A stretch of 31,566 nucleotides of DNA, taken from the IMG/VR virus record IMGVR_UViG_3300046002_004709, positions 1 to 31,566 of that record; one strand, given 5' to 3'. The notes under the pieces were generated by a model. The model did no database searches. It saw only the letters and a program-made list of their open reading frames with translations, and was not told the DNA's origin. This document shows positions 2,771 to 29,536 of this stretch, piece by piece. The stretch's first letter is position 1. Each line of letters opens with the position of its first letter. Source of the DNA: a virus. The position numbers and the translations under genes are program-made.

Positions 2771-3275
2771 TAAAACAATACTTAAAAATGTTGAAAGTTA
2801 TTGTAAATTAAATAATATTGAAGACATTAATGTGTTCATTAAAAAATGTTTTGATACAGGATTTAACATTGAAAAGTATGGGTTGTTGGGAAAAACACTT
2901 AATGATGGTGAAAAACACCTAAAAACGGTTGAAGTTGAGGAAAAACACGTAATTAAAGAGGTGATAGTTGAAAAACGAGTGGAGATACCGGTTGAAGTAA
3001 TAAAAGAGGTTATAGTTGAAAAAGAAGTTATTAAAGAAGTACCTGTAGAAAAGATTGTCACAAAAATAGAATATGTTAGTAATAACAATGACCAAGACAG
3101 CAACAAAATTAAAATGTTACAAACAACAATTCAAAACCTTACTTCGGAGGTTAGAGAATTAAAAAAGAAAAACGAAGAATTAGAAAAAAAATTGTTAGAC
3201 ACGCCAAAACAAGTTGGTAATATTTCCGCCAAGTTCTATGGTAGTTCTAACCTAAACGATGATTTATACAAATAA
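2742..3275 (+). CDS. Coiled-coil protein with Val/Glu/Lys repeats
   Basis: A 177-aa protein if started at MEQKDSK, which overlaps the gp47 end by 29 nt; an in-frame ATG at 2727 would add 5 residues. The first 65 residues look globular and helical (FIKKCFDTGFNIEKYGLLG). Next come degenerate repeats of the type IKEVIVEKEVIKEVPVEK (about 68-108). A heptad-like coiled coil follows (TSEVRELKKKNEELEKKLL). The tail ends SAKFYGSSNLNDDLYK. It lies between the two subunits of the Mre11/Rad50-like complex, so it may assist that complex; this is inference from position only. Confidence 0.7.
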   Translation: MEQKDSKIFNKTILKNVESYCKLNNIEDINVFIKKCFDTGFNIEKYGLLGKTLNDGEKHLKTVEVEEKHVIKEVIVEKRVEIPVEVIKEVIVEKEVIKEVPVEKIVTKIEYVSNNNDQDSNKIKMLQTTIQNLTSEVRELKKKNEELEKKLLDTPKQVGNISAKFYGSSNLNDDLYK

Positions 3276-3276
3276 T

Positions 3277-3627
3277 ATGAATTTAGTGATTTGGGCAATG
3301 GTTGCCTATGGAATGACAAACATTTTGGTCTATGGATCAATTTTTAATGGATTAAGACGTAAAATCCATAATTGGGGTAATAATGAATATTCTTTTCTTT
3401 ATGGTTTAGGGTCATTTTTATCTGGACTTATCTCTTGTGTACTTTGCACATCAACATGGGTGGGATTTTTCTTATCTTTAACGTATTTTTCACCTAATGC
3501 AGATATTATTGGACTTAATAAATTTTTATCTGTATTTTTTGATGGTATGTTGTCCGCAGGATTTGTGTGGGGAATAAATGCAATCATAGAATGGTTTGAA
3601 GAAAATAGACCGACTAATAATAAGTAA
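3277..3627 (+). CDS. Small integral membrane protein (DUF1360-like)
   Basis: A 116-aa hydrophobic protein; the ATG at 3277 follows the previous stop by 1 nt. It has about three membrane segments: residues 2-20, about 43-65 (LGSFLSGLISCVLCTSTWVGFFLSLTYF region) and about 85-105. The C-x-x-C-T-x-x-W-V-G block and the N-terminal YGSIFNGLRRKI resemble the DUF1360-type inner membrane proteins found in T4-like phages. The likely location is the host inner membrane. Its role is unknown. Confidence 0.65.
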   Translation: MNLVIWAMVAYGMTNILVYGSIFNGLRRKIHNWGNNEYSFLYGLGSFLSGLISCVLCTSTWVGFFLSLTYFSPNADIIGLNKFLSVFFDGMLSAGFVWGINAIIEWFEENRPTNNK

Positions 3628-7866: not shown

Positions 7867-8406
7867 ATGTTAAATAGAATCATAAAAAAAGTATTACTTG
7901 AAGAAATCAAACTAATTGAAAGTGCGGACAAAAGAGGACACGTACTATTCTCAAAAGTTATTGACAATAAATTGGTCAGATTAATTTCATCAAGACACCA
8001 AAGAAGTGATAGGTTTGGTAATTTATCATACGAAGAGTCAGTTGAAAAATACGAAGATTTTTTACAAAAACGCAGATCTAAATTTCAAGTACCACCAAGA
8101 ATTGGGGTTCCTGATAAAATGATTGTTAATGTTTTTAGTGAGAATCTTAATAAAATTCAGGACAAATTCAAAGACTTAAACAAAAGTAAAATCATTTTTG
8201 TAAAAGAAAGGGAAGACAATGATGATGATCCGGTATTTGATAATATTGAAATAATAATAGACAAAGAAGGTTCAAACTATACAATAGTAACATCCGCATT
8301 TTCTGAAGACGGAGAATATTTAAAAAATTATAAAACAACTGAACAACAAGATAGAGTTATGTTAGAAATGTATAACGTATCTATAATGCCCGTTGTTTTC
8401 TTATAA
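7867..8406 (+). CDS. Hypothetical protein with N-terminal packaging-type tag
   Basis: A 179-aa protein. The first 13 residues, MLNRIIKKVLLEE, form a basic amphipathic helix ending in LLE, matching the tag seen on several other proteins here. The next part is charged (RLISSRHQRSDRFGNLSYEE). The C-terminal half alternates short strands and helices (DNIEIIIDKEGSNYTIVTSAF). No recognised catalytic motif. It is isolated between an upstream terminator with its own TATTTATA and the downstream membrane-protein unit. I infer a late virion-associated protein; function unknown. Confidence 0.7.
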   Translation: MLNRIIKKVLLEEIKLIESADKRGHVLFSKVIDNKLVRLISSRHQRSDRFGNLSYEESVEKYEDFLQKRRSKFQVPPRIGVPDKMIVNVFSENLNKIQDKFKDLNKSKIIFVKEREDNDDDPVFDNIEIIIDKEGSNYTIVTSAFSEDGEYLKNYKTTEQQDRVMLEMYNVSIMPVVFL

Positions 8407-26550: not shown

Positions 26551-26697
26551 ATGGAAACAATTGAATTGTCAGTTATTAAAAAAATGGTAAAAGAAAATCC
26601 TAATGATATGGAGTTAGGTAAAAAAATTAGACAAATGATTTTAGAAATTAAAAATCAAAAATATGGGATTCAACAAGAGGATACTCAAAAAGGATAA
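26551..26697 (+). CDS. 48-aa small hypothetical protein
   Basis: A 48-codon frame starting METIELSVIKKMVKENPNDM. It is basic and helical (ELGKKIRQMILEIKNQKYG). It overlaps the next gene by 35 nt. The upstream spacer is AT-rich with AAATAAAATT before the ATG, like other starts here. No family recognised. Confidence 0.5.
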   Translation: METIELSVIKKMVKENPNDMELGKKIRQMILEIKNQKYGIQQEDTQKG

Positions 26698-26845
26698 TAT
26701 TATTAATAATATTGATAGGTTACCGATTTACCTATCGGCAGATGCAATCATTACAAGCGATGACTTCTCAAGGGAAGTTTATAAAATGTATTGTGATGGA
26801 AAAACAGAGGATGAAATCATAAAATATATAAACAAAAATAAATGA
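26663..26845 (+). CDS. 60-aa small hypothetical protein
   Basis: A 60-aa protein starting MGFNKRILKKDNIINN. The second half (YLSADAIITSDDFSREVYKMYC, then EDEIIKYINKNK) looks like a compact helical domain. Its stop overlaps the glutamine synthetase ATG (ATGA), so the two are translationally coupled. Function unknown. Confidence 0.55.
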   Translation: MGFNKRILKKDNIINNIDRLPIYLSADAIITSDDFSREVYKMYCDGKTEDEIIKYINKNK

Positions 26846-28131
26846 AAATCAAATTAGAATACGTTTGGTTGGATGGATATACGCCAGAACCAAACTTAAG
26901 AAGTAAAGTAAAAATTGTAGAATACAATGATATTAAAAATGCGTTTTTGGATGGTAAATTTCCTGAATGGAACTTTGACGGGTCATCAACAAAACAAGCA
27001 GAAACAGGTAGTTCAGATTGTATTTTAAAACCTGTTAAACACTACATAACGGATGGGTTACTAAATACGATTTATATCCTTTGTGAAGTTATGAACCCAG
27101 ATGGTACACCACACAAATCAAATTACCGTTCACAATTAGGTGATGAACAAGAAGATTTGTGGTTTGGATTTGAACAAGAATACTTTATTCAAAAAGGGAT
27201 CGGTGAAGGAGTTTTAGGTCACGACAGAAAGTATTTGGACCCACAAGGTAAGTATTACTGTGGTGTAGGACAAAACGTTGTTGGAAGGGACTTTGTTGAA
27301 AGACATACTAATATGTGTTTAAATTATGGGATTGATATTACTGGAACAAATGCTGAGGTTGCGCTTGGACAATGGGAGTATCAGGTTTTTTCAAAAGGTA
27401 AACTAAATGCTGGAGATGACCTATGGATGTCACGATACTTCCTATACAAACTTTCTGAAGAATATGGTTACGCAATTACAATCCACCCAAAACCACTACA
27501 ATATGGAGAATGGAACGGTTCAGGACTTCATACAAACTTCTCAAATGATTATATGAGAAATGTTGGTGGAGAAGAGTATTTTAAATCATTATTTGCAAGT
27601 TTTAACGCAAGACATACTGAACATATTAAACATTATGGTTCACATAATGAATTAAGATTGACAGGTAATTTTGAAACACAATCAATTGATAAATTTAGTT
27701 GGGGGGTTTCAGATAGAGGAGCATCAATTAGAGTACCACAACAAACAGCAAAAGATTGGAAAGGTTATGTTGAAGATAGAAGACCTGGTTCAAACGCGGA
27801 CCCATATAAAATTATCTACCAAATTGAAAAGTCAATTAATAATGCTGAAACAATTGGTGATATTAAACATATGATGAATTTTAAAATTGATATTGATAAA
27901 TTGGATGGTAAGTATGAAGGGATTTTAAGTAATGATGAATTACTTAAAGAATATAAAAACGATGAGGACTATGAACTTGATGTTGAAACAATGGAAGGGT
28001 CTAATATACCAACAGAAGACATTAACTTCAATCCACAACTACAATCAGAATTAATATCAGAATTAAGAAATAAATTGCAAAATAGCAAAATACCTAAAGC
28101 TCTTAAAAACGCAATGTTATATGGAAAATAA
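26842..28131 (+). CDS. glnA: Glutamine synthetase, type II (GSII)
   Basis: A 429-aa ATP-dependent ammonia-glutamate ligase of the eukaryote-like class II. The N-terminal beta-grasp part has KLEYVWLDGYTP and FPEWNFDGSST (40-50). Catalytic parts include WFGFEQEYF (107-115), NGSGLHTNFS (225-234), HYGSHNELRLTGNFET (264-279) and DRGASIRVP (291-299). YVEDRRPGSNADPY is at 309-322. All substrate-binding blocks appear intact. Usual GSII proteins are about 340-370 aa; here about 95 residues follow the last core motif, including an acidic stretch and a basic end KIPKALKNAMLYGK. It would reprogram nitrogen metabolism during infection. A complete GS is rare in phages. Confidence 0.93.
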   Translation: MKIKLEYVWLDGYTPEPNLRSKVKIVEYNDIKNAFLDGKFPEWNFDGSSTKQAETGSSDCILKPVKHYITDGLLNTIYILCEVMNPDGTPHKSNYRSQLGDEQEDLWFGFEQEYFIQKGIGEGVLGHDRKYLDPQGKYYCGVGQNVVGRDFVERHTNMCLNYGIDITGTNAEVALGQWEYQVFSKGKLNAGDDLWMSRYFLYKLSEEYGYAITIHPKPLQYGEWNGSGLHTNFSNDYMRNVGGEEYFKSLFASFNARHTEHIKHYGSHNELRLTGNFETQSIDKFSWGVSDRGASIRVPQQTAKDWKGYVEDRRPGSNADPYKIIYQIEKSINNAETIGDIKHMMNFKIDIDKLDGKYEGILSNDELLKEYKNDEDYELDVETMEGSNIPTEDINFNPQLQSELISELRNKLQNSKIPKALKNAMLYGK

Positions 28132-28144
28132 TAACAATATAAAA

Positions 28145-28507
28145 ATGATAGAATTTCAACAATTTGAACCACTTAAATCAAATAGATGGTTAATAAGAAC
28201 GGAAGGATTAGAAATCAACCCTTTTTTATTTAGAAAATATAAAATATTTAATGATGGAAAAGAAATCATATTTACCACAGAATTTATTGAAACGGTAAAT
28301 AACACATATAACCCAAAAGATTTATTAAATATTGTTGGTATTACCATTGAGTATTTGGATCCAACAGGGGTTGCGGTTCAGAAACTTAAATTTGATGTTA
28401 AGGGGTTGAACTTTAAAATTAAACAATCATATAGTAAAGATACTTTACAAACTACAAAACTTAGATTTGTTGTTAATTCAGATACATTAACTTTAATGAA
28501 TAAATAA
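28145..28507 (+). CDS. Conserved-type hypothetical protein, possible structural protein
   Basis: A 120-aa protein from MIEFQQFEPLKSNRWLIRTE; ATG 28121 overlaps the GS end and adds 8 residues. It is almost all beta: NPFLFRKYKIFNDGKEIIFTT, VGITIEYLDPTGV, LKFDVKGLNFKIK, LRFVVNSDTLTL. The FEPLKSNRW opening and YLDPTGVxVxxLxFDVKG block recall small beta proteins in T4-like Bacteroidota phages, perhaps tail or neck components. That assignment is weak. The DUF3310 remnant begins 1 nt after its stop. Confidence 0.6.
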   Translation: MIEFQQFEPLKSNRWLIRTEGLEINPFLFRKYKIFNDGKEIIFTTEFIETVNNTYNPKDLLNIVGITIEYLDPTGVAVQKLKFDVKGLNFKIKQSYSKDTLQTTKLRFVVNSDTLTLMNK

Positions 28508-28508
28508 T

Positions 28509-28544
28509 ATGGAAAAAGAACAAGTAAACCACCCCCAACATTAA
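28509..28544 (+). pseudogene. Remnant of a DUF3310 gene start
   Basis: An 11-codon frame MEKEQVNHPQH followed by TAA. It aligns with EKEMVNHPDH at the start of the intact DUF3310 gene at 29306. Most codon differences are synonymous (GTA/GTT, AAC/AAT, CAC/CAT). The HNH endonuclease gene lies between the remnant and the intact copy, so it is probably a scar of the endonuclease insertion. Confidence 0.6.
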
Positions 28545-28570
28545 AAAGTTTTGTTGTATGTGGTAAAAAT

Positions 28571-28608
28571 CGTAGTATGGGGATATTTATATATAAACCC
28601 ATACTATG
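28571..28608 (+). promoter_or_regulatory. Hairpin sequestering the HNH start codon
   Basis: Left arm 28571-28581 pairs with right arm 28598-28608 over 11 bp, with one G-U wobble. The right arm includes the ATG of the HNH gene (28606-28608). The 16-nt loop holds TATTTATA. Read-through mRNA would hide the start codon; an mRNA starting from the loop element would lack the left arm. Confidence 0.65.
28584..28591 (+). promoter_or_regulatory. TATTTATA inside the HNH hairpin loop
   Basis: Exact octamer in the hairpin loop, 14 nt before ATG 28606. A start about 6 nt downstream would give an mRNA containing only the right arm. Confidence 0.5.
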
Positions 28609-29301
28609 AAAAAACTTGAATTAAAAATTGGTGATAAATATCATTATTGGACTATATTAGAATTATCTGACTTTGAAAGTAAAAAAGGTGAAAGATATTA
28701 TAAATGTAAGTGTGATTGTGGAACAATAAAGGATGTTAGAGCTCATCACTTGAAAAATGAAAAATCAAAATCTTGTGGTTGTTTTGTTAAAGAAACAATG
28801 TCAAAAATAAAAAGAATTGATATTGAAGGTCAAAAATTTGGTAAATTAACCCCTATAAAAAGAGTTCACCATAATAATAGTAAACATTTAAATAATTGGT
28901 TATGTAAGTGTGATTGTGGTAACGAAGTAATTGCGTCTACGGGTGCGTTAAGAAGAAATAAACATTTATCTTGTGGGTGTATAAGGAAAGGTGAGGAAAG
29001 CCACAATTGGAAAGGGGGGAAAATTACAACACCATCAGGGTATGTTAAAAAATATGCACCTGAACACCCAAAAAATATAATTGGTTATGTTTTGGAACAT
29101 AGATTAATTATGGAAGAGATGGTTGGAAGATATTTAGAACCAAATGAGGAAGTTCACCATAAAAATGGTATTAGAAATGATAATTCTAAAGAAAACCTTG
29201 AATTATGGGTTAAATCCCAACCACCAGGACAAAGAGTTGACGATATGGTTGATTTTTGTTATAATTTCTTAAAGAAATATAAACCTGAAATATTAAAATA
29301 G
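28606..29301 (+). CDS. HNH homing-type endonuclease with two zinc-ribbon repeats
   Basis: A 231-aa protein. Two similar N-terminal repeats each hold a four-cysteine zinc site: YKCKCDCGTIKDV...SCGCF (about 32-62) and WLCKCDCGNEVIAS...SCGC (about 99-126). These modules bind DNA in many phage HNH proteins. The C-terminal HNH domain follows: GYVLEHRLIMEEMVGRYL, then EVHHKNGIRNDNSKENLEL (about 185-203), carrying the His-His and Asn-His-type catalytic residues. The enzyme would nick or cut DNA at a homing site. Its start codon lies in a hairpin, and a DUF3310 remnant lies upstream, the marks of a mobile gene under late control. Confidence 0.9.
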   Translation: MKKLELKIGDKYHYWTILELSDFESKKGERYYKCKCDCGTIKDVRAHHLKNEKSKSCGCFVKETMSKIKRIDIEGQKFGKLTPIKRVHHNNSKHLNNWLCKCDCGNEVIASTGALRRNKHLSCGCIRKGEESHNWKGGKITTPSGYVKKYAPEHPKNIIGYVLEHRLIMEEMVGRYLEPNEEVHHKNGIRNDNSKENLELWVKSQPPGQRVDDMVDFCYNFLKKYKPEILK

Positions 29302-29305
29302 TAAA

Positions 29306-29536
29306 ATGTCAGAAGAAAAAGAAATGGTTAATCATCCCGACCATTACCAATTTGGTGAAAATAATGAATATGAGGCAATCAAAGTAATTGATGCTTGGGA
29401 ATTGGGATTCTCACTTGGTAATACTGTTAAGTACATCTCAAGAGCTGGAAAAAAAGAAAAAGATAAAGAATTACAGGACCTTAAAAAGGCGTTATGGTAT
29501 TTACAACACCATATTGAAACATTAGAGAAAAAATGA
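29306..29536 (+). CDS. DUF3310 family protein
   Basis: A 76-aa protein. The DUF3310 signature is clear: VNHPDHYQFG near the start, then EAIKVIDAWELGFSLGNTVK, YISRAGKKEKD and LQDLKKALWYLQHHIE. The family is widespread in phages, sometimes labelled nucleotide kinase-like, but its function is unknown. It starts 4 nt after the HNH stop and is coupled to the methylase gene by ATGA. A decayed copy of its first codons lies upstream of the HNH gene. Confidence 0.85.
   Translation: MSEEKEMVNHPDHYQFGENNEYEAIKVIDAWELGFSLGNTVKYISRAGKKEKDKELQDLKKALWYLQHHIETLEKK

Follow-up and report, generated by a model that had tools for sequence, protein, structure and literature searches.

Why a phage should encode a complete glutamine synthetase (GS), and what the additional residues at the end of that enzyme might do, are the questions raised by a gene in a viral stretch of 31,566 nucleotides (positions 1 to 31,566 of IMG/VR record IMGVR_UViG_3300046002_004709). 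We refer to this whole stretch as the window and use its numbering throughout. An earlier note on the same DNA had read the gene as a complete type II glutamine synthetase (GSII) with an extra C-terminal domain, and had considered such an enzyme unusual cargo for a phage. Here we examine the enzyme, its C-terminal tail and the site that the gene occupies, and weigh what the phage may gain from it.

Results

The gene encodes a complete GSII under purifying selection

The gene lies on the plus strand at 26842..28131 and encodes 429 residues from an ATG start to a TAA stop; its reading as a complete GSII was borne out by its domains, its catalytic residues and its fold. Both Pfam domains, Gln-synt_N (PF03951, 2.5e-9) and Gln-synt_C (PF00120, 4.2e-17), scored above their gathering thresholds. 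The nearest solved structures are type II enzymes (yeast 3fky, E 1.3e-87; Streptomyces 4bax, E 3.5e-82), whereas the top type I match reached only about 1e-9. The best NCBIfam family by far is GlnII (NF041605), with 325 bits against 54 for GlnA; this score is below the family cut-off of 500, as are the 372-415 bits of chromosomal Bacteroidota GSIIs. A structure model, for which 73 sequences served as input, matched GSII structures with Z scores of 33-38 over residues 1-341 and structures of other GS types with only 26-27, and superposed best on 4bax (Z 37.7, 2.3 A, 331 residues). By PDB E values, Z scores and NCBIfam bits, the protein is closer to GSII than to GSI or GSIII.

The core, residues 1-337 (26842..27852, plus strand), comprises the beta-grasp and catalytic domains with every catalytic residue in place. 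Thirteen positions, D46, S49, E111, E113, E172, E179, H230, R272, E278, R292, R297, E311 and R313, which we take to be the catalytic metal, substrate and nucleotide residues of GSII, are invariant among 73 aligned phage and bacterial proteins and identical in the alignment with yeast GSII. Pooled over 32 disjoint pairs of phage genes, core dN/dS is 0.097, which indicates strong purifying selection and hence a likely active enzyme. Thus the view that the core is intact and probably active is upheld by the conserved active site and the low dN/dS, as far as sequence can tell; the intact frame together with this dN/dS rules out a pseudogene or remnant. The phage GS shares about 49-59% identity with bacterial GSII, from which it differs by fixed residues at H127, Y162, K203 and S331.

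The enzyme belongs to an old viral group

A full GS proved to be less exceptional in phages than the earlier note had supposed, since at least about 590 IMG/VR stretches encode one, as do 9 of 25 moraphages (Perez-Hernandez et al. 2025, PMC12619734). A maximum-likelihood tree of the cores places the window GS in a single all-viral group of 65 rows (SH-aLRT 96) apart from bacterial GSII, while 26 other viral rows fall among or beside bacterial GSII. The tree was built by a quick method and contains several long branches, so its deeper order is unsure. The position of the window GS inside an all-viral clade argues for a long residence of the gene in phages, and the 26 scattered rows indicate that GSII probably entered phages on more than one occasion. 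The all-viral clade, together with an identity of at most 59% to any bacterial GSII found, rules out that the gene was captured from a host recently.

Two larger contigs, G003 (304 kb) and G004 (274 kb), show the same gene order as most of the window. Both encode a GS, a homologue of the DnaJ-like ORF of the window and a family B polymerase, and DnaK was found in neither; in the window itself no TerL, MCP or PolB gene was recognised. The window phage probably belongs to the moraphages or a near lineage. Moraphages are described as jumbo phages, the largest of 307 kb, that come mostly from freshwater and have hosts predicted to be mostly Bacteroidota (PMC12619734). Hosts among the Bacteroidota and an aquatic habitat are therefore probable for the window phage, both being taken from the published and probably related lineage rather than from this contig.

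The C-terminal tail is a flexible appendage with one conserved motif

Bacterial GSIIs stop at about residue 332-345 in window numbering, most of them at about 332-340. The extra C-terminal part of the window GS is thus real, some 85-95 residues beyond the core; in the model it is not a folded domain, however, as pLDDT is mostly below 50 over residues 347-396. Bacterial ends and the structure model together delimit a lengthened last core helix at residues 338-346 (27853..27879, plus strand; model helix 321-346), followed by a phage-specific tail at residues 347-429 (27880..28128, plus strand). Within the tail, pLDDT falls below 50 at residues 347-351, 353-362 and 372-396, and a short helix is predicted at 364-372, around the motif ELLKEY (residues 366-371; 27937..27954, plus strand). 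Only the long-tail forms have two more helices near the C-terminus (398-413 and 419-427; 28033..28122, plus strand), predicted with moderate confidence (pLDDT about 65-77) and ending IPKALKNAMLYGK. This profile argues for a flexible appendage, and structure prediction thus returned a mostly disordered segment in place of the proposed domain. The segment has a single short conserved motif, and its continuation beyond the motif varies.

In the 91 phage GS genes of at least 64% identity, the conserved part of the tail reads L-x-G-K-Y-G-T-x-S-N-D-E-L-L-K-E-Y, and E366, L367, L368 and Y371 are near-universal, each being kept in 87-89 of the 91 rows. Pooled dN/dS (32 disjoint pairs) is 0.207 for residues 337-375 and 0.416 past 375. 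In 58 closed motif-bearing genes no more than 6 residues follow the motif, in 14 there are 7-35 and in 15, among them the window, more than 35. Tail-bearing phage GS proteins range from about 372 to 457 residues in total.

The tail was also sought in ordinary bacterial GSIIs, where its presence would have refuted the reading of the earlier note, and was not found in those examined. Of 80 bacterial GSIIs fetched by similarity to the window protein, 79 end at or near the core end; the one longer frame (L106, 452 residues) has an extension that looks unrelated to the phage tail. In a sample of 295 Bacteroidia genomes, about 38 of them with GSII, no stop-free alignment ran beyond residue 339. When viral contigs were searched for the tail by itself, 80 ORFs emerged, of which 78 are GS. 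The remaining two, apparent cases of the tail on other proteins, are GS genes cut by contig ends, and a tail module on non-GS proteins was rejected. Within residues 339-429, no Pfam family reached its threshold (the nearest was Aha1_N, with 19.1 bits where 23.6 are required, E 0.0016), a PDB search with the tail gave only a chance-level match (nebulin, E 4.6), and a BFVD search gave low-TM matches only. The comparison with solved structures covered mainly residues 1-341.

Tail-like sequences also occur on phage GS cores that are less closely related, for example that of L318, which is 56% identical to the window protein; the tail thus either predates the close clade or was exchanged. In three more distant phages (L264, L272 and L275) a Cys-rich stretch, CVICGIKT...CDGSCGTFK, follows a tail-like motif at the GS C-terminus.

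GS sits in an optional cargo segment

The GS gene belongs to a segment, 26846..29353 (right edge approximate), that also holds a 128-aa ORF, an HNH endonuclease and the start of a DUF3310 ORF. This segment is missing in four relatives: their alignment to the window ends at 26845 (L388, L389 and L390) or 26840 (L405), and restarts in all four at 29354-29363, with flanks of about 77-89% DNA identity. Since these relatives skip it, GS and its downstream neighbours form an optional segment beside a 60-aa gene. The 60-aa ORF (26663..26845, plus strand) overlaps the GS start by 4 nt with its stop (ATGA), an arrangement from which GS is probably translated by stop-start coupling. At the other end, the 128-aa ORF (28121..28507, plus strand) overlaps GS by 11 nt; several relatives have this ORF immediately after the 60-aa ORF, without GS between them. 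The HNH endonuclease ORF (28606-29301), located between the 128-aa ORF and DUF3310 in the segment that relatives lack, may help the cargo to spread.

A homologue of the 60-aa gene precedes 70 of 89 tail-bearing GS genes, in most cases again overlapping by 4 nt, but only 9 of 60 GS genes without the tail motif. This distribution first suggested the 60-aa protein as a partner of GS. A dedicated partnership is weakened by the converse count, in which GS is adjacent at 52 of 77 loci with the 60-aa gene and absent, within the DNA examined, from 25. We read 16 of these 25 loci; the 60-aa gene is there followed mostly by the 128-aa ORF, by a methyltransferase-like/DUF3310 gene or directly by the DUF3310 ORF. 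As it precedes other genes of the same locus where GS is absent, the 60-aa gene is part of the backbone beside the cargo site.

One 153 kb contig (L424) preserves what is left after loss of the enzyme. At 3180-3563, directly after the 60-aa gene and with the same overlap, a frame begins within the GS tail, retains NDELLKEY and runs into DUF3310, the GS core having been lost. ATGAAA is present both at this junction and at the window GS start, which would fit deletion of the core through short homology; a pattern scan found a junction of this type in no other contig. Together, the facultative presence of GS and this deletion indicate that these phages can do without the enzyme.

Two further arrangements were observed at GS loci. 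In L438 (3190-4406), two other genes follow the 60-aa gene at the GS position, one of them resembling a DegT-type aminotransferase by eye, and the GS site may be a cargo hotspot. In G003, a block consisting of the 60-aa gene, GS, a methyltransferase/DUF3310 gene and an N6/N4 methyltransferase is present at both contig ends (L346 1-3269 and the last 3.3 kb, in L361; 3.3 kb each, 81% DNA identity), which may reflect either a tandem duplication or the assembly of two strains into one contig.

Additionally, many otherwise dissimilar proteins of these phages have N-termini in which [LI]xE comes after a basic amphipathic stretch, as in MKHIIKKILKEE. Such starts, which resemble the capsid-targeting sequences of T4 internal proteins, are found in the window at 7867, 11806, 12348, 18312, 24083, 25293 and 30421, and also in L346-L361 (G003) and L332-L345 (G004). 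A loose pattern for them matched 8 times in the window (shuffled mean 1.9), 43 times in G003 (11.1) and 33 times in G004 (9.8). GS itself lacks this N-terminal stretch.

Discussion

We consider it probable that the window gene encodes an active, putatively decameric GSII that serves as facultative metabolic cargo, supplying glutamine and bearing a docking tail. Its carriers would be aquatic phages with large, AT-rich genomes of about 270-304 kb, and their hosts are probably Bacteroidota. Coupling to the 60-aa ORF would drive translation of GS, and in the infected cell the enzyme would use ATP to join ammonium to glutamate, yielding glutamine. This compound donates nitrogen when the host makes purines, CTP and amino acids, and for this reason an extra GS, uncoupled from expression of the host enzyme, would be expected to support genome replication. 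On this general biochemistry, the suggestion that a phage GS could raise the glutamine available for nucleotide synthesis is plausible. The glutamine-using families GATase (PF00117), GATase_6 (PF13522) and Asn_synthase (PF00733) were not found in G000, G003, G004 or G005; thus phage-made glutamine would feed host enzymes.

For the tail, the presence of a short conserved motif inside a disordered segment of one enzyme makes docking its most likely role. The appendage is specific to GS, and ELLxEY probably docks it either to a partner or to the enzyme that bears it; this would adjust where GS is located, how it assembles or how stable it is, and not its catalysis. We can offer only tentatively a stronger version, in which the ELLxEY motif marks a docking module invented by phages that tethers GS to one particular partner, from phage or host, or controls the activity of GS, and so regulates or localises the glutamine supply. 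Were this true, the L424 remnant, with its tail in frame and its core lost, would imply that the tail has an effect of its own, independent of the enzyme.

The benefit to the phage might instead lie in escape from host control, a GSII with an altered surface and a tail continuing to work while the host GS is shut down or inhibited, be it by infection or by shifts in nitrogen. The divergence of phage GS, only about 49-59% identical to bacterial GSII, the four fixed differences and the confinement of the tail to phages are all in keeping with this idea; yet the fixed differences may be lineage drift, and the existence of tailless phage GSIIs argues that the tail is dispensable. We therefore regard escape as unlikely. 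To the same degree we doubt that the tail is a drifting, non-functional addition to an ordinary GSII. Its variable length, its mostly disordered prediction and a dN/dS of up to 0.42 past residue 375 are what an inert tail would show, but a dN/dS of 0.21 over residues 337-375, the near-universal retention of four motif residues and the occurrence of a close tail on the distant core of L318 point the other way.

Less probable still is a two-part phage GS module in which the tail would be the docking site for the upstream 60-aa protein. The enrichment of the 60-aa gene ahead of tail-bearing over motif-less GS genes suggests such a module, as does G004, where the pair is found some 25 kb away from the genes that normally flank it. 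Against this, the 60-aa gene stands without GS at 25 of 77 loci, where other genes of the locus lie downstream of it, and about 19 tail-bearing GS genes have no 60-aa gene upstream. We thus retain the reading of a glutamine-supplying cargo enzyme with a docking tail, of which the motif offers a concrete target for binding tests. If the tail does dock a partner, phages would be adding regulation to a metabolic gene and not only copying it. Furthermore, close relatives with and without GS lend themselves to a natural comparison of the conditions under which glutamine production benefits a phage.

The window GS can be set beside several known systems. Chromosomal GSIIs of Bacteroidota and related bacteria (GlnII, NF041605) have the same domains and catalytic residues and about 50-59% identity over residues 1-337, but are tailless, end at about residue 332-345 and fall outside the viral clade. 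The eukaryotic and Streptomyces enzymes 4bax, 2d3a, 2qc8 and 3fky share the fold, with Z scores of 35-38, and have nothing that matches window residues 347-429. Three huge phages with genomes of 635-735 kb (LR756501, LR756502 and LR745206) also encode a full GSII; these enzymes, in contrast, are only 44-53% identical to that of the window, have 331-365 residues without the ELLxEY tail and lie elsewhere in the tree. Among titles and abstracts of a mostly open-access literature, we found no C-terminal extension of GSII like the phage tail, and while GS in phages has already been reported, the flexible, phage-only ELLxEY tail does not appear to have been described.

A further parallel is with the moraphages, of which 9 of 25 carry GS; DnaJ is common among them, the window having a DnaJ-like ORF, and DnaK occurs in 8 of 25 (PMC12619734). 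In the available portions of that account, the type of GS, its tail, its neighbours and the presence/absence site are not mentioned. Viral glnA has likewise been described from viromes as a metabolic gene for ammonium assimilation (PMC9083009, PMC10721903, PMC11944383), in the accessible parts of these reports at the level of annotation and without sequence anatomy. Where viral glnA is usually known by annotation alone, the present gene now has its anatomy, its selection, its gain and loss and a defined cargo site worked out.
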